The notes under the pieces were generated by a model that ran no database searches, was not told the DNA's origin, and worked only from the letters and a program-made list of their open reading frames with translations. The translations under genes were made by a program, and so were the position numbers. A DNA stretch of 64,000 bases from Bartonella sp. M0283. Its GTDB lineage: Bacteria; Pseudomonadota; Alphaproteobacteria; Rhizobiales; Rhizobiaceae. Position 1 is the first letter of the stretch. Each line of letters opens with the position of its first letter. Below are positions 1 to 18,286 of this stretch, piece after piece. The stretch is from assembly GCF_016100455.1 (NCBI RefSeq), contig NZ_JACFSK010000001.1, positions 124,001-188,000 on the forward strand, in the 5' to 3' direction.

Positions 1-150
1 ACCGTGACAATGGATCCCAAACAAAACGAAAATTTGAAGATATTTCCGGGCATGACAGTCGAGACCTTTGCACTCGCAGGACAAAGAACATTTCTGCAAT
101 ATCTTTTCAAACCGTTTATTGATGGAATGTCGGTCGTCTTCAGCGAGTAA
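1..150 (+). CDS. HlyD-family type I secretion membrane fusion protein, C-terminal end (partial)
   Basis: Frame 1 is open from the window edge to a TAA at 148-150 and encodes the last 49 residues of a protein. The segment PGMTVE followed by GQRTFLQYLFKPFIDG matches the C-terminal signature of HlyD/LapC-type periplasmic adaptors, where a Pro-Gly-Met-x-Val-Glu strand precedes a TGxRTxLxYLxKP helix ending at the inner membrane. These proteins bridge an ABC transporter and an outer-membrane channel in type I secretion. The next gene encodes a giant repeat protein and the one after it an ABC transporter, which supports a secretion locus. The start and most of the gene lie outside the window. Confidence 0.85.
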   Translation, partial: TVTMDPKQNENLKIFPGMTVETFALAGQRTFLQYLFKPFIDGMSVVFSE

Positions 151-264: not shown

Positions 265-3200
265 ATGAAACTACCTTTTCCGCAGAAGGACGGCGTGTCC
301 GTTCTGGTTGATACTTATTCGGATAACGATGTACCGCTAGCTATTTCCCAAGTCGAAATTATTATTCGCGGGAGTGACGTTGTCATTCGTACGCAGGATG
401 GTTCCGAACTGACATTGGTTCAGGCGGCGCAAATGTCGTCTATGCATGAAAATTTGTTCAATCTGACTTTTACAGATGGGACTGTCGTCTCGTCGAATGA
501 ATTGTTCCAGCGTGCCGATTTGATTGAACCGGGCCCCGAACTTAGTGAAATTCGTGAAAACAATATCAAGAGCGAAAGCAATGTCGATCCTCTGGTCGCC
601 GTTGTCCAATCGGCACCGGTAAGTGAAAGCACAGATTTTGATTCCGATGATATAACAGGTGGCATGAGTGGCGGGAAAGGCAACAGTGATGACCGTCTGT
701 CTGTGGCCGATTTTCTGGGTAATCCGCCGTCTGCGCTTGATGATACGGTAAGTTTTATCCCGTCAACGACATCGGGAGGCGGCGCTCAGTTGCCATCAAA
801 CAGCTCGTCCGAGCCAATGCCCGCACCGGTATTTCCAACCGCGCCATCGGAACCGTCAACGCCAACAACGCCAACAACGCCTACCAACCCTGATCATGGC
901 AGTGATCATAACGGTGGTGGCAATAACGATAACAACAATGATCATAATGGTGGCAATAACGATAACAACAATGATCATAATGGCGGTAATAACGATAACA
1001 ATAACGACAATGATCACGGGAACGGAGATAATGACAACCCGGCCGGATTACCATTTGTCGACAAGGCTAACCTTTATCAGGTAACAAACACCAAAACGGT
1101 TGTTGAAAATGCAGACGGAACCGAAACGTCCGTTTGGCATATGGGCGGCGGTTCGCCTGCTGCACGTACAAATCCTGATCTTGGCGTTCAATATGGCGAA
1201 CCTGCTATTCTCGATTTGCGCAATGAAGCTGATCAGGAAAAAGGTTTTACAGTCCATGCCGATAACGAGGCCTTCAAATATGGTCAGGTCAATACAGAAA
1301 ACAACCCGAACAATCTGGATCGTCGTTTAGGGCGTATTGTCAGCTTCGACCAATTGGTAGGTGGAGAATCTGTTGCCGGTAAAAGTATCAAGAACGTAAC
1401 CGGCATTCCGGACGGCATGACCATCATCTGGAAGGGAGGCCCCGGATACGATGATTTTGTTGCCAAATACGGTATCGAACTTAAAGACAACGAGATATTC
1501 GTCAGTTATAAGGGTAATGTCGATTATAACGGCAACAACATCAATATAACCTGGGTCGATGCTCAAGGCAGGATAACCAAAGCCAAATCCGAATTTACCA
1601 ACCAGTATAACGGAGATCATCCGGATACGATTATCAATGGTAACCATGCGATTGTTTTGCCGAAGACGCCGAATGCACGCGAAATTTATGGCGGCAGCGG
1701 AAACGATACGATTTATGCTTCCCAGTTCAATAACAACATCAAATATGATGGCGAAGGTGGTACAAACCGCCTGATCTTCGGTGATGATTATCCGATTACC
1801 ACCGACGAGGGGTCAAACGCACTGCCAGGACTGGTATACGATGTTGCCAATAACAAGATAACCGATACCGGTAATGGCGATATTGCCGAAATGCATAATT
1901 TTACCGAAATTGTCGGCACTAAAGGTGATGACAAGTTTTTGATCGGTGATGCAGCGACCTCTTATTATTTTGACGGGCGCGATGGCAATAACATCTTCAA
2001 TATGCAGATGACCGATCCGAACACCGGTGTCACTACAGGTTCGAGCGGTAATAACCGGTTATATGCCGGTGCAGGAGAAGACATCTATAATCTCGATAAT
2101 TCTTCGGGCAATAACACTATTGTCGATAGTGGTAAAGGAGACTCGAACGATAGCTATAATTTTGAATCCTCGACAGGCGTGAACAAGATTGCAGATTCAG
2201 GCGGAAGTGATTTCTACCACTTCAACAAGGCTATCAATCGCGTAGAGATCATTGATTCAGCAGCCGGTAACGATCAGTACCAGTTCCATAATATCAAAGA
2301 CAATCATGTTACGATCAATGATCTCAATGATGGTGACAGTTTAAGCGGCAGCGATGTCTATGATTTTGCTACTTTGGCTTCAGCCGGTAGCACTGCAAAA
2401 GATCATGTCGAGAATTCCATTGTTACTATTCTTGATGAAAATGGCAGCGATAAATATCAATTTGACCGCACAAAAGGTGGTTCTGTTACGATTGATGACG
2501 AAGGCGTGATCAGCTCAAAAGATCAAGCTCAGGATGAGTACCATTTTTCAGGCGCTGACACAAAAATCGATATTACCGATAAGGATGGTGCTGATAAATA
2601 TTCCTTTGATCATGCAAAGACGAGCGCGGATAACACAATCAAGATCAAGGATTATGGTACCGCCAACGACATTTATAATTTCAATGATGTAACATCGGCT
2701 AGCATGGCAGAAGGCGATGCCGCGAATATTTCGATCACGGATAATGGCGGCAAGGACGCATATCACTTTGACAGGGTTCAAAGCAAAGTCCACATTGATG
2801 ATATTGGCTCGGGCGATAACTACTTTACGTTCCACAACGCCGATAAATCCGATATTACGATTAACAATAAAAACGATGGCATCTATCTTGGTGGCAACGA
2901 CATTTATGACTTTGCAACGCTAAAGGATAATAATGAATCCGCCACTGATCATATTAAAGATACGACCGTTGCTATCGCCGATGAGCATGGCAATGATCTT
3001 TATAACTTCGATCGCACGACCGGTGGATCTGTAACCATCAAGGACACCGGTGTTGGAAGTCCAAGCGACAGAACACTGGCAGCTGACGAATATCATTTTT
3101 CGGCTGCCGACACGAAAGTCGATATTACCGATAAGGATGGTGCTGATAAATACGATTTCAGCGATACTACAACATCGGCTGATAATACAATTAAAATTAC

Positions 3201-6200
3201 CGATAACAGCGATAGCAATTATACGGACGATTATAATTTCAACGGAACCAAAGCAACAGATTTTGCTGCGGATGCGGATGCAAATATCGTTATTGCCGAC
3301 GCGGGTGGCGCCGACCACTATCATTTCAATAACATCACCAGCAAGGTGAAGATTGACGATCATGGAGCGGGTAACGACGATTATACGTTCCATGAGGCAA
3401 CCGACTCGGATATTACCATTCACGATTACTTCGATAATCGTAACACAGCACAATATCTCAACAATGTTTATGATTTTGCTACCCATGGTACGGGTAGTCA
3501 GAACCCGACCGATCATATCACCAATACAACTGTCAATATCACCGACGAAAGCGGTCAAGACCAGTATTATTTTGAACGCACGCAAGGTGGCTCGGTCACA
3601 ATTGTGGATTCTGCATTCAACAATAATTATTCCAACAATGCCGATAACTACTTTTTCAATGACTCCCATTCAAAGGTTTCAATAACCGATGGTGGTGGCT
3701 CCGATAACTATTACTTCAACCGTATAACGGTTGATCAGGACAACACTGTTACTATCAAAGATCAGGGTGGCAATAATTCGGGAAGTGACACCTATAATTT
3801 TAATAATGTGAAAGCCGTGGGCGCTATTTCGGGCGAGCCTCACATTAAGATTTCTGATGATAACGGTGGGGATAGATACAATTTCGATAATTTGGGCGAT
3901 GCCAACGGGCCTGTTACGAGTGTTCAAATCGACGATAGGGGAAATACTGAAGATACTTACAATTTCCACAATGCAGTAAATGCACTGGTTAATATTAGCG
4001 ACTATGTCGGCTCGTATAACGATGATGTTTACAACTTTGCAGGTAATTATGCCACGGACACGGACCATATAACCAACACGACTGTCAATATTCAAGACGG
4101 GGTTGGCCAAGACACATATTATTTTAACCGCGCAGATCAATCAAATATCAATATTACCGATTATGCTGATTGGCAGGATAATTATTATTTCAACGATATC
4201 AATAATTCTACAGTCACAATTAATGATGGTGGTGGCAACTCAGGTCGGACCGGAGCAGATGTCTTCAACTTCAATCGTGCTAAGGGCGGTAGTGTGACGA
4301 TAACGGAAGGTAGCGGAACCACTAGATATTACTTCCAAAAGGTAGAAACAAAAGTCGATATTACCGATCAGGACGGTGGCGATTCGTATGATTTCCAGAA
4401 TTCAATAACGAGCGATTCAAATACAATTACAATTAAAGACAGTTATGGTGCAGATAAGTATAATTTTAGTGGAACGGATTCGACCAGTTTTGCTAGCGGG
4501 GACAACTACAATATTAGTATAACGGATACAGCAGAACAAAACAATTACGATTTTACTTCCGCTCACACGAAAGTCTATATTTCTGAGACGGGGAATTATA
4601 ACGACTCATATAACTTTACCAAAGTTCACGATTCTATTGTGACAATTGTTGACACCAGTTTTGATAATAATGCCGGCGATAATTATAAATTTGGCGATGG
4701 AACACTTGCTGGCCGTATAATAAACACTGTGGTCAATATCACCGATGGCGGTGAGGCCGACACCTATTCGTTCCAATATTCGGATTCCGGCCAGGCAGAT
4801 GGTGAGCGGGGCACAGTGACCATTGTCGATAACGGGACCAATACTCGATATTCTGTTGATGACACCTACCTCTTTTCCAATAGTCATTTGAAAACTGTTG
4901 ATATTACCGAAGCGAGAGGTTCCGATACTTATAACTTTACGAATTCGACAATCGACAAAGTAACCATTAACGATAATGGCGACAATTTAACCAAGGATGG
5001 AGTATGGCGGACTGATAGTTATGATTTTACCGGTTCGGCAAACAAAGAAACGATCATCAAGGATATATTGGGCCAAAGCAAATACACGTTTACGAATGCC
5101 GGATTTGCCAATAAGGACGGTGAAAATGTGACAGCATCGTCGACTGTCAAGATTATTGATGGCGACAGCACGGATGTCTATACATTTGACCACAGCAAAG
5201 GCGTGGTCAATATTATTGACGGTGGCAACAACCTCAAGACGACGCAAAGGCGTATCCAGTATGATGATAACGGCCACATCAAATACACACAAACAGAAAC
5301 CGACGACGGTTCCGTCAATGTTCCTACGACAACAGACAGTTTTAGTGCTCAAGCAGCCGATGAATTCAATTTCAGATATTCTTCTGCAAAGGTGAATATA
5401 CAGGATGGTATTTTTGCTGGCGATGATTCGGGATTAGCCGCTGATGATGGTAATTCCGATGGCAACTATTATTTCCAATATTCGACCGGCGATGCAACAA
5501 TTACCAATAAAGGTGGCATGGATAAATATTACCTCGGAGGTTCTACCGGTAAATTTATTGTCAATGGCGGAACCGGAACAGACATTCTTTATGTCGGCAA
5601 AGGATATCTCGTTTATGATGGTGGCACACGAACCGATGGCGGCAAGGAAAATGACTGGATTTCGTTCCAGGATGTTCTGGAAAGCACAGATGCCAACGGT
5701 AATCCGGTCACTAATAAAGTAGATCCGAATGGCCGCACTGAAGGTGTTTACATCAATCTTGGTGCAAATGACCTAGGCTATGCTGACTATAGTTCTGTGT
5801 TGAGCCATGACGAACATGGTGCAGTACTTGCCGATGGTGGCGATAAAGGTCATGTAACCAATGTTGAAAATGTTATTGGCACCAAGTTCCGTGATCTGAT
5901 TTACGGCAATGACAAAGACAATTATTTTCTGGCAACCCAGGGTAATGATGAATATTACGGCGGTGAAGGTTCGGATACATATTATGTCGGTGCCCCCGAC
6001 ATTGGAGGACGTATTGATGGATTGTTCCTGAGACCGGATGGGACGCTTGACGATGCGGCAGCAGATTATGCACAGATGGCGGCATGGGCGGATCCGTCAA
6101 ATCTTATTGTTACCAGAGATAAAGTTATTATTGATCTCGACCACGGATATGCAAAAACTTTGTGGAAAGATGAACATAACGTCCAGTCTCAGGATACATT

Positions 6201-7350
6201 GCATGACTTTGAAAATGCCTATGGCGCTTTATTCTTTAGAAACGACATCACCGGCAGATGGGGGACAGACGGCAGGTTTGTGGGCGGTTATAAAGGGGAT
6301 ACTTTTTATTCTGTTCAAAATTCGAGCAAGGACGGCATTAGTTATTTTGATGGTAATGATACTCGTACCGTACGAGGGCCGAAGGGCGGAACTTTACTGA
6401 CAAGCGATATCTTGCGTTATGACTATGTAAACGATCATGGTGAGTATATCCACGGTGTCTATGTAAAAATGGATACAGATGCGTCCTATTCGGGAACAAC
6501 AGTAAAGGGCTTCACCGGTTTTGGTGAAGGCAATGTTGCCCAGGGCACCCAAGGCAAGGATATCTTCAAAAGTATCGGGACCATCTTTGGTACAAAAGAT
6601 GACGATATATTCGAGGGAAGTAACGCTGGTGGCCATTCTTTTGACGGTGTTTCTGGCAATGACAGGTTTATCAGTCATGGCGGGGTGGCGAGCCAATATG
6701 CCAACGGTGCTATTCTTGACTATAGCAAGCTTACCAAAAGAGAGTTTCTGGATGTCTTAATGAGCGATGACCAACATGGTCTGATTACTCGTGGCGGCGG
6801 AAACGAAGCGGATAAAATAAGTAATGTTAATTCCATTATCGGTACGGAGGGTGACGATCTCATCCATTTCACAACCAATAAACAACTTTCTGAATCGGCT
6901 TTTATTGGTTTTGACGGTGGTGGCGGTGTCAACTATATGACAAAAAGGCAGGATACTATCGGTAGCATTCATGACCAGATTTATAACATTGGCGGCGGCT
7001 TTAAAAATGTTCAAGGTTTCAGCTTTATCGATTCATATAAAGATACATTGAACATCGACCTTGACGCTTTCTTCAAGGATTTCAAAACAGGCACTGCCGA
7101 TGGTGATGGTCATTATCATGCGAAGTTCTTCTTGAATGGAGATCCTAATAGCGGTGACCCAAATGCCGACATCTTTAACGGGATTGATAAAGACGGCGGT
7201 TGGAGCTGGCATAAGACCGCAGATGACGGTCATGGTAACGAAACCTGGAGTGCATTTGAAAATGATGTCAATACGGGCGATACAATCGAAGTTACAAGAG
7301 GAAGACAGGGCGATAACCACCTGCAGGATTCTCACCCTTCAATTCCGTAA
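265..7350 (+). CDS. Giant acidic repeat protein (2361 aa), probable type I secreted surface or extracellular protein
   Basis: ATG start with an AGGGG about 10 bases upstream. No Sec signal peptide is visible. Residues 1-100 form a compact Val/Asp-rich domain. Residues about 180-265 are a Pro/Thr then Asn/Asp/His/Gly-rich linker. Residues about 560-1780 carry roughly 40 copies of a D-x-Y-x-F motif, each followed by a V-x-I-x-D strand and a Gly/Asp turn. The C-terminal 550 residues contain degenerate RTX-like stretches such as YGGEGSDTYYVG and IIGTEGDDLIHF. The D-x-Y-x-F unit resembles the GNDTYVF segment found beside calcium-binding RTX repeats, so a calcium-dependent beta-roll or solenoid is inferred. 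Its place between a HlyD-type gene and an ABC transporter gene makes it the likely substrate. Adhesin or biofilm matrix protein is the best guess; no enzyme domain was recognised. Confidence 0.85.
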   Translation: MKLPFPQKDGVSVLVDTYSDNDVPLAISQVEIIIRGSDVVIRTQDGSELTLVQAAQMSSMHENLFNLTFTDGTVVSSNELFQRADLIEPGPELSEIRENNIKSESNVDPLVAVVQSAPVSESTDFDSDDITGGMSGGKGNSDDRLSVADFLGNPPSALDDTVSFIPSTTSGGGAQLPSNSSSEPMPAPVFPTAPSEPSTPTTPTTPTNPDHGSDHNGGGNNDNNNDHNGGNNDNNNDHNGGNNDNNNDNDHGNGDNDNPAGLPFVDKANLYQVTNTKTVVENADGTETSVWHMGGGSPAARTNPDLGVQYGEPAILDLRNEADQEKGFTVHADNEAFKYGQVNTENNPNNLDRRLGRIVSFDQLVGGESVAGKSIKNVTGIPDGMTIIWKGGPGYDDFVAKYGIELKDNEIFVSYKGNVDYNGNNINITWVDAQGRITKAKSEFTNQYNGDHPDTIINGNHAIVLPKTPNAREIYGGSGNDTIYASQFNNNIKYDGEGGTNRLIFGDDYPITTDEGSNALPGLVYDVANNKITDTGNGDIAEMHNFTEIVGTKGDDKFLIGDAATSYYFDGRDGNNIFNMQMTDPNTGVTTGSSGNNRLYAGAGEDIYNLDNSSGNNTIVDSGKGDSNDSYNFESSTGVNKIADSGGSDFYHFNKAINRVEIIDSAAGNDQYQFHNIKDNHVTINDLNDGDSLSGSDVYDFATLASAGSTAKDHVENSIVTILDENGSDKYQFDRTKGGSVTIDDEGVISSKDQAQDEYHFSGADTKIDITDKDGADKYSFDHAKTSADNTIKIKDYGTANDIYNFNDVTSASMAEGDAANISITDNGGKDAYHFDRVQSKVHIDDIGSGDNYFTFHNADKSDITINNKNDGIYLGGNDIYDFATLKDNNESATDHIKDTTVAIADEHGNDLYNFDRTTGGSVTIKDTGVGSPSDRTLAADEYHFSAADTKVDITDKDGADKYDFSDTTTSADNTIKITDNSDSNYTDDYNFNGTKATDFAADADANIVIADAGGADHYHFNNITSKVKIDDHGAGNDDYTFHEATDSDITIHDYFDNRNTAQYLNNVYDFATHGTGSQNPTDHITNTTVNITDESGQDQYYFERTQGGSVTIVDSAFNNNYSNNADNYFFNDSHSKVSITDGGGSDNYYFNRITVDQDNTVTIKDQGGNNSGSDTYNFNNVKAVGAISGEPHIKISDDNGGDRYNFDNLGDANGPVTSVQIDDRGNTEDTYNFHNAVNALVNISDYVGSYNDDVYNFAGNYATDTDHITNTTVNIQDGVGQDTYYFNRADQSNINITDYADWQDNYYFNDINNSTVTINDGGGNSGRTGADVFNFNRAKGGSVTITEGSGTTRYYFQKVETKVDITDQDGGDSYDFQNSITSDSNTITIKDSYGADKYNFSGTDSTSFASGDNYNISITDTAEQNNYDFTSAHTKVYISETGNYNDSYNFTKVHDSIVTIVDTSFDNNAGDNYKFGDGTLAGRIINTVVNITDGGEADTYSFQYSDSGQADGERGTVTIVDNGTNTRYSVDDTYLFSNSHLKTVDITEARGSDTYNFTNSTIDKVTINDNGDNLTKDGVWRTDSYDFTGSANKETIIKDILGQSKYTFTNAGFANKDGENVTASSTVKIIDGDSTDVYTFDHSKGVVNIIDGGNNLKTTQRRIQYDDNGHIKYTQTETDDGSVNVPTTTDSFSAQAADEFNFRYSSAKVNIQDGIFAGDDSGLAADDGNSDGNYYFQYSTGDATITNKGGMDKYYLGGSTGKFIVNGGTGTDILYVGKGYLVYDGGTRTDGGKENDWISFQDVLESTDANGNPVTNKVDPNGRTEGVYINLGANDLGYADYSSVLSHDEHGAVLADGGDKGHVTNVENVIGTKFRDLIYGNDKDNYFLATQGNDEYYGGEGSDTYYVGAPDIGGRIDGLFLRPDGTLDDAAADYAQMAAWADPSNLIVTRDKVIIDLDHGYAKTLWKDEHNVQSQDTLHDFENAYGALFFRNDITGRWGTDGRFVGGYKGDTFYSVQNSSKDGISYFDGNDTRTVRGPKGGTLLTSDILRYDYVNDHGEYIHGVYVKMDTDASYSGTTVKGFTGFGEGNVAQGTQGKDIFKSIGTIFGTKDDDIFEGSNAGGHSFDGVSGNDRFISHGGVASQYANGAILDYSKLTKREFLDVLMSDDQHGLITRGGGNEADKISNVNSIIGTEGDDLIHFTTNKQLSESAFIGFDGGGGVNYMTKRQDTIGSIHDQIYNIGGGFKNVQGFSFIDSYKDTLNIDLDAFFKDFKTGTADGDGHYHAKFFLNGDPNSGDPNADIFNGIDKDGGWSWHKTADDGHGNETWSAFENDVNTGDTIEVTRGRQGDNHLQDSHPSIP
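904..1017 (+). repeat. In-frame tandem repeat (36/33/39 bp) coding an Asn/Asp/His/Gly linker
   Basis: Three consecutive copies of a unit coding DHNGG(G)NNDNNN lie at 904-939, 940-972 and 973-1011, followed by a decayed partial copy. Unit lengths are multiples of three, so copy-number change would keep the reading frame. It codes the linker between the N-terminal domain and the rest of the giant protein. Confidence 0.85.
2353..4680 (+). repeat. Tandem super-repeats of about 185 codons within the giant gene
   Basis: The landmark [DN]-[VI]-Y-[DN]-F-A recurs at codons starting 2356, 2902, 3466 and 4027, giving spacings of 182, 188 and 187 residues. Each interval has the same order of smaller units: a D-H-[IV]...T-x-V-x-I strand, an FxRTxGGSVTI strand, an ADTKVDITDKDGADKY unit (clear in the first two copies), a xSADNTIKI unit, a GGxDxYHF unit and a VxIDDxGxGxD unit. 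This is a repeat of repeats, best preserved in the first three copies. Confidence 0.8.
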
Positions 7351-7413
7351 CTGTAACATTGAATTCAAGGCAGAGTGCCTTTAAAACCTAATGCCCGTTT
7401 TGGAAAGAACCGA

Positions 7414-9684
7414 ATGACTCCTCTGATTGATGCTCTGGAAACCGCGTGTAACAAAATACGCGGTTCTCTTCCTTTTCACTGGCAGCGTCTGCGTACTTTG
7501 CCGATGTCGGGCGACGAAACTTTGATCAAGCTTGTCGAGCGCCAGCTTGGCGTTCACATCGTTCGCGTCAACAAACAATCGGCCTTGCAGATTGGCGGTA
7601 TTTATATTGTGCTCACTCCTGCCGGCAATTACCGTGCGGTGGAAGTGGCAAATGATGGTACCTTTGTTTTTCTGGATGAAGACAAACAGAAAAGCCACGA
7701 AGAGGAAGCTGATAATATCCGTTCTGGCAGTGGTACTGTGACAGTCGAGAGCAAAATCGAGCCTTCTCTTGAACTTAAAAAACAGCCTCATGAAAATGGT
7801 GTTGAGCCGCAGGCTCTCAAAAAAACTGTGCATCCGGCCGAAGTTGTGAAGCTTGATATGCTTGCCAAATCGGATACCAAACCTGTTATAAATCCGGCTG
7901 GCGGTGCGAACGCCGGAAAGCAGAAAAGCGCAGAAGAAAAAGCACAAAAATTTACAGATCAATGTATTCCGCAATATCAGGTTTTCAAAGCAAGTCTTCT
8001 TGACAATTTCGATTTGCGCCGCCTCATTTCATCGGATCCGGTGGCGGTTTCCATTCTATGGAAATTGCTTTTCGGCTCGATTTTCATCAACCTGATGATT
8101 GTCGTGACACCGCTTTATCTGAATGCAATTTATAGCCGCATTTTACCGGCCTATGCATCAGCCTCGTTATGGACTTTTTCAGTCGGTGTCGCATTGGCAT
8201 TGATTGCCGAATATCTACTTCGTCGTGACCGACAGAAGCTCAATATTTCGCTCGTCCAACGCATTCACACAACAATCGAACCCAATATTGTAAGGCGGCT
8301 TTTGCGCGTCAATGCCAGCCAGTCGAATGAATGGGGCGCCGCCCAGTTCCGCGCGCTGGATGATTGGAAGATGGTGCGCAATTTTGCATGTCTGACTTTG
8401 AATCTCAATGTTGTGGATGTTCCCTTCATTCTGCTTTTTCTTCTCGTCATTGCAATTCTCGGGCAATGGGTTGTTGTTGTTCCGATATTCATCATCGGCA
8501 TTATTGTTTGCGTCATGTATTACTACTGGCGACAGGCGGAATTGCAATTTAGCGAACGGCCACTCTATCGCGACCCGCCAACACCGGTCGATATGATCGT
8601 CGCCTCCATTATCGGCCGGCCGGATGTTGTGAGCGATCGCTATATGTCCGACTCCGAGACCGATATTGAAGCCTGGAAAAAGCGTTATCAACGCAATGCT
8701 GCTTTCCAGCGTTTGAATTATGCAATCAATGGCGCGCAGCTCGTGCTCATTGTCATTATGGCTTATTATCTGGTTCTTGCCGGTTCACTTAATCAGGGAG
8801 CAATTTTTGCGGTTATTCTGCTTGCCGGCCGTATGTTGATGCCATTGTTCGGCGCTTCAAGTATTATCTATGAGGCTTACGGAGCACATCGCAGTTACAA
8901 GCGGTTGAAAAAACTTATTAGCGAAAGCTCCGACAATCAGGATCAGCCGATCCATCTTGAAAAATACGAAAATCTCAAATCGCCATTATGGGTCATTGAA
9001 CACGGAACTTTTGCCTATAACAATGAAAAAGTCATTCTCGATGATCTTGATCTTGTTATACCGAAGGGCCAGAAGATTGCACTGTTCGGGCGTAACGGGA
9101 GCGGCAAAAGCACTTTGTTGAAATTGCTTGCCGGTTATCTCGCACTTGAAAAAGGTACGATTACGTTTTCAAAACGTCCGCTCCATGCAGGGGATGAATC
9201 GATCAAACATCTCATTCATTATTCCTGGCAGGAACATGTGATGTTGACGAGCTCGGTTTATGAATTTCTGTGTCTCGAAGGCCGGCTCTCGCGCGAAGAA
9301 TGTGAAAACATTCTCCATCAGCTCGATCTTGTAAGTGGCGAAATGCAAATTGCCGATAAACTGGAAGTGACATGGCGCGATGCCGGATTTTATCCCAATC
9401 CTGCACATCGCCAGATGCTGGCCTCGGCCCGCCTTGCACTGACAAAGCGCAAGATTTTGCTTCTTGATGAACCAACTTCGCAATTGTCACAAAAACAGGA
9501 AGCACGCGTTGCCAATGTGCTTAAAAACATATTGCAGCCCGATACCACAATGGTTGTGTCGACAGACCGTTTTGATATTCTGAATTTGACGGAACGCGTT
9601 ATTGTTCTCGATCAGGGGCATATCCAGTTTGATGGGCCAACGCGCGAATTCCTGCGTCGTTCTGTCCGCCCGCAAAATGGCTAG
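7414..9684 (+). CDS. Type I secretion ABC transporter, LapB/HlyB-like, with degenerate ATPase motifs
   Basis: A fused membrane-plus-ATPase ABC protein of about 756 residues. ATG 7414 follows GGAAAG at 5-base spacing; a GTG at 7375 with AAGG upstream is an alternative. An N-terminal soluble region of about 210 residues is followed by a multi-helix transmembrane domain and a nucleotide-binding domain. Walker A (GRNGSGKST, from 9088), a Q-loop glutamine and Walker B (ILLLDEP, 9454-9474) are intact. The ABC signature position reads PNPAHRQ (9394-9414) instead of LSGGQRQ, the D-loop reads SQLS instead of SALD, and the H-loop position is Asp (9565-9567) rather than His. It starts 63 bases after the giant gene. 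It is inferred to take part in export of that protein, perhaps as the weak half of a heterodimer. Confidence 0.8.
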   Translation: MTPLIDALETACNKIRGSLPFHWQRLRTLPMSGDETLIKLVERQLGVHIVRVNKQSALQIGGIYIVLTPAGNYRAVEVANDGTFVFLDEDKQKSHEEEADNIRSGSGTVTVESKIEPSLELKKQPHENGVEPQALKKTVHPAEVVKLDMLAKSDTKPVINPAGGANAGKQKSAEEKAQKFTDQCIPQYQVFKASLLDNFDLRRLISSDPVAVSILWKLLFGSIFINLMIVVTPLYLNAIYSRILPAYASASLWTFSVGVALALIAEYLLRRDRQKLNISLVQRIHTTIEPNIVRRLLRVNASQSNEWGAAQFRALDDWKMVRNFACLTLNLNVVDVPFILLFLLVIAILGQWVVVVPIFIIGIIVCVMYYYWRQAELQFSERPLYRDPPTPVDMIVASIIGRPDVVSDRYMSDSETDIEAWKKRYQRNAAFQRLNYAINGAQLVLIVIMAYYLVLAGSLNQGAIFAVILLAGRMLMPLFGASSIIYEAYGAHRSYKRLKKLISESSDNQDQPIHLEKYENLKSPLWVIEHGTFAYNNEKVILDDLDLVIPKGQKIALFGRNGSGKSTLLKLLAGYLALEKGTITFSKRPLHAGDESIKHLIHYSWQEHVMLTSSVYEFLCLEGRLSREECENILHQLDLVSGEMQIADKLEVTWRDAGFYPNPAHRQMLASARLALTKRKILLLDEPTSQLSQKQEARVANVLKNILQPDTTMVVSTDRFDILNLTERVIVLDQGHIQFDGPTREFLRRSVRPQNG

Positions 9685-12726: not shown

Positions 12727-15540
12727 TTGCAACATCAAAAATGTGGGGATGTGATAGAGTTGCATTTCTTGGAAAACACAAAGCCGGCGGTGAAGCTTTC
12801 CAGCGCCCGTTATCGGCAGGAATGGGCAAGCGATATAGCAAAGATTGTCCAAAGTTACATCAGGCAAATTGCGGAACGTCTTAAAAATGCCAACAAAACA
12901 GATATAGGTGCGGTTTTTGCCGAGTTCTCCGAGATTCTCGGCAAAGATGGAGACAGCCTCCCTGACATGGATGATATTGTTGAACTGTTGGCACAATATC
13001 TCGTTAGCAAGCCCGTTTTCGATATTTTATTTTCAAGTTCCAGTACTGCTGAACATAACCCGCTGTCACGAAAAGCACTGCGCAAAATTTTCAATAATTT
13101 TGACGATATTCGCAAGAGTTCGCACAAGGAAAGCCTCGAACAATTCTATCAAGCTGTTGCAGAACGCGCAAAAGGATTGGAACAAAAACCGGAAGCACGT
13201 CAAAAATTTATTGCCGAACTTTATGACCGCTTTTTCAGCAGAGCCTTTCCGAAGATTACCGATCGTTTGGGAATTGTCTATACGCCGGTCGAAGTGGTGG
13301 ATTTCATCCTTCACAGCGTCGATGACATTTTGCGAACCGAGTTTAATTGCTCGTTTGGAAGTCAAGGCGTGCAAATCCTTGACCCTTTCACTGGAACAGG
13401 CATTTTTATTGCCCGTCTGATCGAGTGCGGGTTGATCAAACCGCAAGATTTAGAACATGTTTATAACAACGAGCTTCACGCCAATGAGCTCGTTTTACTT
13501 GCTTATTTTATCGCCAAGATCAATATCGAAACAGCCTATCAAGTGAAAAACGGCAGGCCCTATCAGGCTTTTTCCGGCGTCCATTTTTGCGATACATTTG
13601 TGAAGGTTGAAAAAGACAAATCCCGCTTGGTGAAACCTTCTGACAGCCATGATCGTCAACAGGACCATAGGCAGCACAATTGTGAGAACGGACGGGATGT
13701 GACTGATATCCGGATTATTATTGGCAATCCGCCTTATTCGACAGGGCAGGAGAGCGCCAATGATGATGCCGCCAATCAGAAATATCCGGAAATTGACCGG
13801 AGAATTGCCGAAACCTATCTTGCTTCGACACTGACAAAAGGTGGCAAGCGTTCTTCTTATGACAGCTACATCCGTGCTATTCGTTGGGCCTCCGATTATA
13901 TCGGCAAATGCGGCATTATCAGCTTTGTAACCAATGCCGGCTTTGTCCAATCCGCTTCAGCCGATGGCATGCGCAAATGTCTTGCCGAAGAATTTTCCGA
14001 TATCTACATTTTTCATTTGCGCGGCAATGCGCGCACATCCGGCACATTGCGACAAAAAGAGGGAGGCAATATATTCGGCGTCGGTTCACGCGCACCTGTT
14101 GCCATTTCAATCCTTGTCAAAAATCCTCTTGCCAAACAAAAGGGGCAGATTTTTTTCTATGATATTGGCGATTATCTCGATATCAATCAAAAGCTTGAAA
14201 AAATTAAAAAGCTCAAAAGCATTGCCTGCCTCAAAGAACAATGGCAAAAAATTGTTCCCGACAGCTATCACGATTGGCTTAATCAACGCGATGGGTGTTT
14301 CAGAAATTTTCCTGTAATGGGCGACAAAAAGAATAAACAGAGCCTCACCATTTTCAAACTCTATTCAAGCGGCGTTGTTTCGGGGCGGGATGCATGGGTC
14401 TATAACGCGTCAAGAACGAAGCTCTTGCAAAACGTCAAGTGCATGACAGAGTTTTATAATCAGGAAATTGACCGATATTCCCGCTATAGGAAACGCTTTC
14501 CCAATACAGTCGTCAATGTGAGCGATTTCGTCAAAAAAGACGTCAAAAAATTCAGTTGGGGTGGTGGTAACTGGCAGGCAAGTTTCAAAAAACAGATCAA
14601 AGAAATATTTGCGGAAGATTTGACGGAAATATCCAATGTCCGGCCGTTTACAAAGTCATGGCACTATAGCGCTCCGCGGTTCAATCACAGCTCCTATTCG
14701 ATGAAAGAAATATTTCCGGCGGGGGCTTCGGAAAACCTAGCTATTTGCGTGTCCGGAAATGGCAAGCGCGGCGGTTTTTCAGTCATCATGTCAAACAGAA
14801 TTACAGATTTCCAGTTCGAAGATAATGGCCAATGTTTTCCGCTTTATTTTTATGAAAAACACCATGCGCGTGAGATGGGAAAAGACGGCGCTAATCAGAG
14901 CGGCCTCAAGCGTTCTGATGCCATTACCGACGAGGCACTAAAATATTATCAAACCGCCTATTCAGATAATCACATCACGAAAGAAGATCTGTTCTATTAT
15001 ATTTACGGGATTTTGCATTCACCGGAGTTTCGAGCCCGTTTTTCCGACAATCTCGTCAAAGAATTGCCCCATATTCCGGCTGTCAAAACGCTTGAAGACT
15101 TTAAGGCTTTTTCAAAGGCCGGTCGTGCATTGGGGCATTTGCATGTGAACTATGAAAGCGTTGAAAAATATCCGGTCAAACTAGTTACGAAAAAGAAAAC
15201 ACTTGGTGCGGCCGATTTTTATGTGACGAAAATGCGCTATGGCGGGAGGGGCAAAAACAAAGACCGCTCGGTCATCCATTACAATGATAAAATCACCATT
15301 ACGGGAATTCCATTTGCCGCTTATGACTATATCGTAAACAATAAAACGGCGATCGACTGGGTGATGGAAAGGCAAAGTATACGCATTGATAAAACAAGCG
15401 GCATTGTTAACGATGCCAATGATTTTGCACGCGAGACAATGCATAATCCTGCCTATCCGCTGGAACTCTTGTTAAGGGTTATCAACGTTTCAGTAAAAAC
15501 GATCAAAATTATCCGCAACTTGCCGGAACTGGAGATTTGA
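12727..15540 (+). CDS. Type ISP restriction-modification enzyme, methyltransferase/specificity half only
   Basis: 937 residues when read from TTG 12727; GTG 12751 is an alternative start. The N-terminal helical region leads into the conserved block LGIVYTPVEVVDFI, then methyltransferase motif I (LDPFTGTGIF, about residue 219) and motif IV NPPY (about residue 334), which mark an N6-adenine DNA methyltransferase. The long C-terminal part is the target-recognition region and ends in NVSVKTIKIIRNLPEL, the usual C-terminus of LlaBIII-type single-chain enzymes. Those enzymes are typically about 1600 residues, with a Mrr-like nuclease and a superfamily 2 helicase first. Both are absent, and an in-frame stop lies at 12649. 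It could methylate DNA but should not cut or translocate. It may be a truncated remnant or a stand-alone methylase. Confidence 0.8.
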   Translation: MQHQKCGDVIELHFLENTKPAVKLSSARYRQEWASDIAKIVQSYIRQIAERLKNANKTDIGAVFAEFSEILGKDGDSLPDMDDIVELLAQYLVSKPVFDILFSSSSTAEHNPLSRKALRKIFNNFDDIRKSSHKESLEQFYQAVAERAKGLEQKPEARQKFIAELYDRFFSRAFPKITDRLGIVYTPVEVVDFILHSVDDILRTEFNCSFGSQGVQILDPFTGTGIFIARLIECGLIKPQDLEHVYNNELHANELVLLAYFIAKINIETAYQVKNGRPYQAFSGVHFCDTFVKVEKDKSRLVKPSDSHDRQQDHRQHNCENGRDVTDIRIIIGNPPYSTGQESANDDAANQKYPEIDRRIAETYLASTLTKGGKRSSYDSYIRAIRWASDYIGKCGIISFVTNAGFVQSASADGMRKCLAEEFSDIYIFHLRGNARTSGTLRQKEGGNIFGVGSRAPVAISILVKNPLAKQKGQIFFYDIGDYLDINQKLEKIKKLKSIACLKEQWQKIVPDSYHDWLNQRDGCFRNFPVMGDKKNKQSLTIFKLYSSGVVSGRDAWVYNASRTKLLQNVKCMTEFYNQEIDRYSRYRKRFPNTVVNVSDFVKKDVKKFSWGGGNWQASFKKQIKEIFAEDLTEISNVRPFTKSWHYSAPRFNHSSYSMKEIFPAGASENLAICVSGNGKRGGFSVIMSNRITDFQFEDNGQCFPLYFYEKHHAREMGKDGANQSGLKRSDAITDEALKYYQTAYSDNHITKEDLFYYIYGILHSPEFRARFSDNLVKELPHIPAVKTLEDFKAFSKAGRALGHLHVNYESVEKYPVKLVTKKKTLGAADFYVTKMRYGGRGKNKDRSVIHYNDKITITGIPFAAYDYIVNNKTAIDWVMERQSIRIDKTSGIVNDANDFARETMHNPAYPLELLLRVINVSVKTIKIIRNLPELEI

Positions 15541-15965: not shown

Positions 15966-17537
15966 ATGAAACAAGTTAAAGCGCTTCAGCAAGTCGAAAA
16001 AACCAAAAGACCAACAATAAAATTAAGTAATTTTGTAAAAACCATTCAAAATATCATGCGCGGAGATAGCGGTGTCAACGGCGATGCACAACGTATCGAG
16101 CAGATGACATGGCTGTTTTTTTTAAAAATTTATGGGGCAAAGGAAGAAAGTTGGTCAGTTGTCGGTAGTAGTAGAGCTGATAGTTATAAATCTATTATAC
16201 CGGATGACTTCCATTGGGAGAATTGGGCGAAAGATAACAAGGATGGGAAAGCGTTAACGGGCGAACCGTTGTTGGAATTTGTTAATCAAAAATTGTTTCC
16301 GGCACTTAAAAACCTTAATATCGACATCAATACACCAATTCGACAATCTATTGTAAAAACAGTTTTCGAAGATGCCAACCAATATATGAAGGATGGCGTT
16401 TTACTGCGCAAGGTTATCAATGTCATCGATGAGATTGATTTTGATGAATACCACGATAAGCATGCATTTGGCGAAATTTATGAAACCATTTTAAAAAGTT
16501 TGCAAAGTGCAGGTGACGCAGGTGAATTTTATACCCCGCGTGCTGTGACCGATTTTATTATTAAGGTTTTAAACCCGAAATTGGGTGAAACGGTCGCTGA
16601 TTTTGCTTGTGGTACAGGGGGGTTCCTGACTGCGGCATTGAAAACGCTGAATAGCCAGGTAAAAACAACAAGAGATCGTCGTGTTATTCAGGAAAGTATA
16701 TATGGCATTGAAAAAAAACCGCTGCCTTATATGCTGTGTGTCACGAACTTATTATTACACGATCTTGATAATCCCATGATTGTGCATGGTAACGGTTTGG
16801 AGAAAAATGTTCGCGAATACCAAAAAAATGATCGATTTGATGTTGTGGTTATGAATCCACCTTATGGAGGGACGGAAAATGAAATAATCCGAAGCAACTT
16901 TCCGAAAGCATTGCAAAGCGGTGAAACTGCTGACTTATTTATGACCGTCGCAATGTATCGCCTGAAGCATCTTGTAGAAGGCGGCGGAAGATGTGCTATT
17001 ATCATTCCCGACGGTTTTTTGTTTGGTGGCGACAGTGCAAAAACAGCCATAAAAGAAAAACTGGTTAATGAATTCAATTTACATACAATTGTCCGCCTCC
17101 CAAATAGTATTTTTGCGCCTTATACGTCAATTACAACCAATATCCTATTCTTTGATAATAGCAAAACGACAGACGAAGTTTGGTTTTATCGTGTGGATAT
17201 GCCGGAAGGCCAAAAACATTTTTCTAAAACGCGGCCTGTGAAACTGGAGCATTTCAACTCATGCCTTGAATGGTGGAATAATCGGACAGTCATAGCCGAT
17301 AAAGATACTGATAGTTTCAAATCGCAAAAATTTAATAGAGATTTTTTAGAGCATAATGGGTTCAATCTTGACTTATGCGGTTACCCGAAAATAGAAGAGG
17401 AAATATTGAGCCCGGAAGAAACGATGTTAAAATATCATGAGAAACGCACAGAGTTAAACGCGCGCATTGATGCAACATTATCTGATATTGCCAAGTTTCT
17501 CGATATTGATTTGAATAAAAAGATTGCCGGTAAATGA
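15966..17537 (+). CDS. hsdM: Type I restriction-modification methyltransferase subunit HsdM
   Basis: 523 residues, the normal length for this family. The N-terminal HsdM helical domain (QRIEQMTWLFFLK, about residues 42-54) is followed by the catalytic domain with GEFYTPRAV, AdoMet-binding motif I ADFACGTGGFL (about 210-222) and motif IV NPPYGG (297-302). This is the gamma-class N6-adenine methylase of type I systems, which works as M2S and, with HsdR, as R2M2S. Its TGA overlaps the start of hsdS by four bases (ATGA), implying translational coupling. All catalytic motifs are intact. Confidence 0.93.
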   Translation: MKQVKALQQVEKTKRPTIKLSNFVKTIQNIMRGDSGVNGDAQRIEQMTWLFFLKIYGAKEESWSVVGSSRADSYKSIIPDDFHWENWAKDNKDGKALTGEPLLEFVNQKLFPALKNLNIDINTPIRQSIVKTVFEDANQYMKDGVLLRKVINVIDEIDFDEYHDKHAFGEIYETILKSLQSAGDAGEFYTPRAVTDFIIKVLNPKLGETVADFACGTGGFLTAALKTLNSQVKTTRDRRVIQESIYGIEKKPLPYMLCVTNLLLHDLDNPMIVHGNGLEKNVREYQKNDRFDVVVMNPPYGGTENEIIRSNFPKALQSGETADLFMTVAMYRLKHLVEGGGRCAIIIPDGFLFGGDSAKTAIKEKLVNEFNLHTIVRLPNSIFAPYTSITTNILFFDNSKTTDEVWFYRVDMPEGQKHFSKTRPVKLEHFNSCLEWWNNRTVIADKDTDSFKSQKFNRDFLEHNGFNLDLCGYPKIEEEILSPEETMLKYHEKRTELNARIDATLSDIAKFLDIDLNKKIAGK

Positions 17538-18286
17538 GACTGATTGGTGACAAGTTAAAAGCTTCTTTACTTCAGGATGCTTTTCAAGGCAAATTGACAA
17601 AACAATTGCCTGAAGATGGTGATGCACGTGACTTGCTGAAGGAGATAAAAGCGGAAAAAGAGCGCTTGGTCAAAGAAAAGAAAATTAAAGAAGAAAAACC
17701 CTTGCCCGTTATCAAAGACAAAGAAATACCATTTGATATACCCAAAAACTGGGTTTGGACACGGTTGGGCGACTGCTCTTTGTATATTCAAAGAGGTAAG
17801 TCTCCTAGATATTCAGTTATAAAAAAATATCCTGTGATTTCGCAAAAATGTATTCAATGGAGTGGATTCGATATTTCGGCAGCTAAATTTATCGATCCTG
17901 ATTCAGTTTCGTTATACGGAGATGAGAGAATTTTACAAGACAATGATTTATTGTGGAATTCAACGGGAACTGGAACGGTGGGAAGAGTTACTCACTACAT
18001 AAAAAATAACAATTCTTATAACTTTGGAGTTGCTGATAGTCATGTAACCGTTATTCGTTTTTATCGTGAGTTAATGGATCCTATTTATATTGAATATTTT
18101 ATTAGAAGCGAGCATATTCAGAAAAATATTGAAAATTTGTGTACCGGCAGCACGAAGCAAAAAGAATTAAGTTTAGCTGTAATTAAATCATTGCCTATTC
18201 CTCTTCCTCCACTTGCTGAGCAACGTCGTATTGTAGATAAACTAAAGACAGCATTGGAAAAGATAGATATTTTAAATGATAGTTAA
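17534..18286 (+). CDS. hsdS: Type I restriction specificity subunit HsdS, half-length (one target-recognition domain)
   Basis: 250 residues, against about 400 or more for a standard HsdS. It begins with the conserved helix and linker (LLQDAFQGKLTKQLPEDG, then an AEKERLVKEKKIKEEKPLP segment), has one target-recognition domain (residues about 70-220), and ends within the central conserved helix after PLPPLAEQRRIVDKL. The second recognition domain and distal repeat are missing; the stop is a clean TAA, with 35 bases to the convergent hsdR. Half-S proteins of other systems can dimerise and recognise a symmetric site, so the system may still work. The alternative is a truncation that inactivates it. 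Overlaps hsdM by 4 bases. Confidence 0.88.
   Translation: MRLIGDKLKASLLQDAFQGKLTKQLPEDGDARDLLKEIKAEKERLVKEKKIKEEKPLPVIKDKEIPFDIPKNWVWTRLGDCSLYIQRGKSPRYSVIKKYPVISQKCIQWSGFDISAAKFIDPDSVSLYGDERILQDNDLLWNSTGTGTVGRVTHYIKNNNSYNFGVADSHVTVIRFYRELMDPIYIEYFIRSEHIQKNIENLCTGSTKQKELSLAVIKSLPIPLPPLAEQRRIVDKLKTALEKIDILNDS

Follow-up and report, generated by a model that had tools for sequence, protein, structure and literature searches.

The locus described here raises the question of what a giant type I secretion substrate does when most of its centre is a repeat that belongs to no described family. It lies in a 64,000-nucleotide stretch of the 2.68 Mb genome of Bartonella sp. M0283 (contig NZ_JACFSK010000001.1, positions 124,001 to 188,000), referred to below as the window, where an open reading frame (ORF) with an ATG start encodes a protein of 2361 residues (Table 1). 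An earlier note made from the sequence had taken this protein for a type I substrate, and its neighbours bear this out, with a gene for an HlyD-family protein just upstream and an ABC transporter ORF starting 24 bp 3' of the giant gene. We consider, with a probability of about 0.6, that it is secreted and acts as a surface adhesin, a single parallel beta-solenoid of about 41 turns forming its stalk or binding face; the protein is probably a surface fibre for gut attachment.

The central array is built from the motif DxYxF paired with a VxIxD strand. Strict DxYxF occurs 34 times in residues 560-1780, compared with a mean of 0.51 (maximum 4) in 2000 shuffles of the whole region and 0.52 (maximum 5) in 1000 shuffles within 40-residue blocks, while 32 DxYxF...[VI]xIx[DE] pairs were observed against a mean of 0.01 (maximum 1) in local shuffles. 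Chance composition as the source of the motif is rejected by both shuffle tests. With motif variants allowed, 41 units can be placed, in agreement with the roughly 40 paired motifs counted previously, but they fill residues 606-1659 rather than the whole of 560-1780. The aligned units share 20 columns, with D present in 36 of the 41, Y in 39, F in 40, V or I in 38 and I in all; the last core column is D in 37 units and E in three, and a G precedes the D of the unit by two residues in 24, giving the G-x-D of RTX turns. In seven orthologs (an eighth, L024, was left out because almost all its regional figures equal L023's) the core columns are 87-99% identical, and the out-facing strand columns 5, 7, 28 and 30 are 51-70% identical. 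This alternation of conserved core columns with variable out-facing ones is consistent with strands that have one buried face.

The units are themselves ordered into super-repeats (SR1 to SR4), and the gaps from YxF to VxI run 18, 7, 6, 10, 15, 6, 7 in both SR1 and SR2 and 18, 7, 6, 10, 14, 12, 7 in SR3. The periodicity expected on self-comparison was found, with best self-identity at lags of 186, 182 and 370 residues, and the proposed super-repeat spacings of 182, 188 and 187 proved correct. The landmarks given in the earlier note at codons 698, 880, 1068 and 1255 are real, but stand one residue past the first letter of the motif (697, 879, 1067 and 1254), and its super-repeats of about 185 residues hold as seven-unit blocks for SR1 to SR3 but not for SR4, which has nine units, or for the array after residue 1472, which is irregular. 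Units of the same phase resemble one another more (normalised similarity 0.347, 50 pairs) than other pairs do (0.187, 385 pairs), a difference reached by none of 2000 label permutations, for phase labels assigned by eye after reading to 30 of the 41 units, with 11 left out. In all five of the orthologs compared (L022, L024 and L029 being left out of the eight), each of the four super-repeats resembles its counterpart in the window protein more (58-97% identity) than sibling super-repeats within one protein resemble each other (39-59%, six proteins). Judged from these identities, the super-repeat duplications are older than the species compared, since counterparts are closer than siblings; for the same reason recent tandem duplication was rejected, and Tandem Repeats Finder flags only the linker. 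The L029 ortholog (2042 residues), from a metagenome-assembled genome (MAG), has a shorter array.

AlphaFold2 predicts a solenoid in a model covering residues 690-1075, in agreement with the suggestion that the motif has expanded into a solenoid of its own, and a second model covers residues 1230-1640 with fair scores but is poor past the array (predicted local distance difference test 61.8, predicted template modelling score 0.53); the models contain no ions. The middle of the protein is predicted to form a single long, spiral rod, its roughly 41 turns grouped in blocks of seven. One turn would correspond to one unit, with Tyr, Phe, Val/Ile and Ile facing inwards, and at 4.8 Angstrom per turn the solenoid would be about 20 nm long. 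The seven-unit super-repeat would fix the positions of the loops, the same loops recurring about every 3.4 nm, and these may act together as multivalent ligands towards the bee gut. As anticipated, no family in Pfam or NCBIfam spans the array, and a known family was rejected on these grounds; one sub-threshold match to FPRL1_inhibitor (residues 759-838, E 0.024) was taken as chance. A super-repeat profile found no relative among PDB sequences (two matches, E 0.95 and 2.3).

The previous proposal that the unit is a derivative of an RTX-associated element is plausible, and a precedent exists in the Region IV repeat of the Marinomonas primoryensis protein MpAFP (MpIBP), described as 19-21 residues of the form xGTGNDxuxuGGxuxGxux (PMC3492233). 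The first half of that repeat shares its register with the present unit, whose 20-column core likewise carries D-x-u-x-u in about 20 residues, but the second half does not, GGxuxGxux being replaced here by VxIxD. Region IV has 13 repeats compared with about 41 here, and the present array differs further in having up to 18 residues between strands and a seven-unit super-repeat; the likeness does not imply ice binding. With the RTX beta-roll (PF00353) the array has in common Asp/Gly-rich turns and type I secretion, but in place of tandem GGxGxDxUx it has one Asp turn per about 20 residues. The near absence of the canonical nonapeptide that had been reported is correct: GGxGxD occurs four times in the protein (residues 391, 476, 1768 and 1899), once inside 560-1780. 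Beyond the array lies an RTX-like block, whose best PF00353 stretch (residues 1872-1905, E 8.4e-4) scores 19.7 bits, below the cut-off of 23, and which the CyaA RTX chain matches at E 0.015. Two Asp would flank the G-x-D turn, resembling the RTX-like beta-helix of MpAFP, and putative Ca2+ at these turns would allow folding only outside the cell. An ordinary calcium-free parallel beta-helix of the pectate-lyase-like, tailspike or autotransporter type, which reached DxYxF independently of RTX and would still be an exported adhesin or rod, is possible but doubtful, given the turn Asp residues (36 and 37 of 41 units), G-x-D in the MpAFP register, the acidity of residues 603-1660 (179 D+E vs 69 K+R) and the combination of type I export with an RTX block in one protein.

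The genes around the giant ORF suggest how such a protein could be exported and held. In order, the operon encodes a 465-residue MotA/ExbB-like protein, a 505-residue TolC-family protein, a 217-residue MotB-plug protein, the 446-residue HlyD protein, the giant and the ABC transporter, the genes 5' of that for HlyD, including the MotA/MotB-like pair, lying upstream of the window. The OEP, HlyD and ABC matches are above cut-off; the 217-residue protein matches MotB_plug just below it (E 8.5e-5) and the MotB chain 6ykp at E 0.0044, and the motor motifs GLLGTFxGL and YxDMxTVLL are conserved as far as Enterobacter asburiae. The locus thus combines TolC, HlyD and ABC components with a giant substrate and a MotA/MotB-like pair. 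This is the gene set of a Sii-like system and recalls SiiABCDEF of Salmonella pathogenicity island 4 (SPI-4). Two reports describe SiiA and SiiB as forming a proton channel; without them, SiiE secretion into the medium is unaffected but invasion is reduced, and SiiE is retained less at the surface when an uncoupler is present (PMC12607715, PMC6272769). This likeness comes from gene content and published descriptions; SiiE consists of 53 immunoglobulin-like (Ig) domains in contrast to the solenoid here, gene order differs, and Pfam finds no Ig domain in the giant protein. We would not class the locus as a Sii-like member, its substrate being Ig-less. Among the matches from PDB searches with both motor proteins nothing was named SiiA. 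The substrate would leave through the operon's TolC-HlyD-ABC channel, and the MotA/MotB-like pair probably holds it there by its N-terminal part by means of the proton gradient; such retention, through N-terminal domain and linker, is modelled on the SiiA/SiiB-SiiE proposal. LapA-type adhesins carry the LapG cleavage motif AAG in their N-terminal part. A LapA-type adhesin with LapG release was rejected, as [TPAS]AAG is absent from the first 400 residues in 9/9 sequences.

A close parallel to the whole operon is a plasmid locus of E. asburiae (pKeioCLMIC23), in which all six components recur in identical order. The N-terminal domain is 88-98% identical in the eight Bartonella orthologs and 33% identical to the N-terminus of the E. 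asburiae substrate, which at 1905 residues lacks the super-repeat. Near its C-terminus, in a region picked after reading, there are nine matches to the loose motif [DN]x[YF]x[FLI], compared with 1.66 in shuffles. The unit hidden Markov model (HMM) gives the substrate -29.4 bits as a whole and -13.8 for the C-terminal part (best shuffles 4.2 and 3.4) and single stretches 8.9 and 6.9 bits. Against plasmids, the whole protein matches by its N-terminal part only, in two E. asburiae records, and the array has no match at E<=10; in viral contigs, 161 pattern matches to the array gave no confirmed case. On a Providencia rettgeri plasmid (L060:15935-17900) are two genes related to the Enterobacter system, one MotA-like and split, the other short and of the TolC family; they look like a remnant. 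An N-terminal profile found its own genome and two weak matches in 289 class genomes, and only its own in 398 phylum genomes. At L030:5689-8658, an alphaproteobacterial RTX protein beside a canonical type I system matches this profile weakly in its N-terminal part (E 8.7e-5), and on this match the domain may be a common feature of type I substrates. Relatives of the MotA-like protein are common (117 of 398 phylum genomes, its own included); a weak tblastn test of 19 such loci, with about 1.5 kb of flanking sequence, showed nothing like TolC, MotB or HlyD nearby, and a single ABC fragment, encoded on the opposite strand (L042).

Several results weigh against a retained adhesin built on such a solenoid. 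Foldseek found no match at E<=0.001 among PDB structures and viral models; the leading fold matches of the second model are a curli subunit (root-mean-square deviation 9.2), autotransporters and sugar-acting beta-helices; and MpAFP, the top row in VIA-align, stands level, to within 1 Z, with PL6 alginate lyases. Calcium binding by the turns is putative; the unit HMM gives a repeat shared with Enterobacter no support at the level of sequence; the match of the 465-residue protein to PF01618 (E 0.0019) is below its curated cut-off; and the literature, searched with most subscription journals outside its scope, yielded no recognised paper on this protein or testing its gene. No ligand-binding domain was recognised in the giant protein, which, like the alginate lyases and other sugar-acting beta-helices among the closest folds, would suit a released exoenzyme or biofilm-matrix protein whose solenoid acts on or packs with polysaccharide. 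This is unlikely: a shared beta-helix says nothing on function, no catalytic site was identified, albeit without a detailed search, and a 41-unit repeat of old phase together with the operon's motor pair better fits a structural, retained protein. Residues 1786-2104 gave no usable model, and this region, with its RTX block, is where an effector or toxin could keep its activity (the C-terminal 700 residues), the array serving as an RTX-like secretion aid; Pfam and NCBIfam find no toxin or enzyme domain in the protein, and we regard this as very improbable.

The adhesin reading leaves the source of power to be considered, as the ABC transporter of the operon is altered. It has neither the LSGGQ nor the H-loop His of a canonical type I ABC: PNPAHRQ replaces the first and Asp the second. 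PNPAHRQ and [ST]TDR are present in 8/8 Bartonella loci read (the window and seven ortholog loci containing the gene), in which the ortholog ABC ORFs start 13 codons later, while the genome's other type I ABC carries LSGGQ and THR. The Enterobacter ABC has also lost both, with LSLQK, TDN and a Ser for the Walker B Glu; its gene had no match in E. coli genomes. Loss in two distant lineages with the ATP-binding motifs kept is the basis for a speculative and rather unlikely reading, in which the system has come to rely less on ATP and more on the proton gradient and the MotA/MotB-like motor pulls or holds the solenoid, turn-by-turn folding outside acting as a 41-step ratchet with about 20 residues per step. 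Holding would fit better than pulling, since SiiE secretion is described as unaffected without siiA and siiB (PMC12607715). The motif changes alone do not prove loss of ATPase activity; they make the question of the power source concrete.

The gene is confined to part of its genus in the genomes searched. It is present in four of 36 other same-genus genomes, with no match in 32, and a named collection gave, from 102 pattern matches, eight confirmed loci, each carrying a Bartonella label: B. apihabitans, B. choladocola, B. apis, Bartonella sp. M0177 and four MAGs. A super-repeat profile found only its own genome among 385 sampled class genomes, and two same-order genomes match at the RTX block only (E 3-5e-4). 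B. apihabitans and B. choladocola are from bee guts. B. apis is a honeybee bacterium according to a source which also proposes that in Ca. Tokpelaia, an ant symbiont related to Bartonella, a giant protein of Ig repeats is a type I substrate for gut attachment (PMC5156944). That protein resembles not the solenoid protein but a second giant gene of this genome, upstream of the window (L059:2-17293; at least 5763 residues, open at the edge), which shows many Ig domains (Big_13, Big_6) within 2000 residues of either edge, and a weak RTX match close to the end. After it come a tryptophan halogenase and then TolC, ABC and HlyD genes of canonical type, as at the giant locus of the ant symbiont (PMC5156944).

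Table 1. Features of the giant gene and its neighbours in the window
Feature	Window coordinates	Strand	Residues	Remarks
HlyD-family gene, end	1..150	+		446 aa; start upstream of window; operon member
Giant type I substrate	265..7350	+	1-2361	2361 aa, zero Cys
N-terminal domain	265..600	+	1-112	Best conserved part of protein
Low-complexity linker	601..1044	+	113-260	N, D, G, S, P abundant
Conserved region preceding array	1045..2064	+	261-600	No Pfam match
Solenoid array (predicted), 41 DxYxF...VxIxD units	2080..5241	+	606-1659	Motif counts, alignment, models
Four leading units	2080..2352	+	606-696	Unit placement
SR1, seven units	2353..2898	+	697-878	Unit placement
SR2, seven units	2899..3462	+	879-1066	Unit placement
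SR3, seven units	3463..4023	+	1067-1253	Unit placement
SR4, nine units	4024..4677	+	1254-1471	Unit placement
Irregular last units	4678..5241	+	1472-1659	Unit placement
RTX nonapeptide-like block	5848..5991	+	1862-1909	PF00353 and CyaA RTX chain, weak
ABC transporter of type I secretion	7375..9684	+		Walker A and B intact

The linker contains a 33-bp tandem repeat (window 903-1001) coding for Asn, Asp, His and Gly, and its length varies among orthologs. A 1071-residue ORF without a Pfam match lies between the two type I loci (L018:6616-9831), and further along the window are a Type ISP restriction-modification enzyme (12727-15540; PF18135, PF22240) and the Type I restriction-modification genes HsdM and HsdS (15966-18286).

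If the adhesin reading is true, bee-gut Bartonella would possess a solenoid forming one long, regular rod whose loops follow a seven-turn timetable, an architecture for type I adhesins that none of the searched libraries models. It would also extend motor-linked type I systems beyond Salmonella, here with a substrate that is not built of Ig domains, opening the role of the motor to study in a symbiont, and the altered ABC would make the power source of such systems directly testable.
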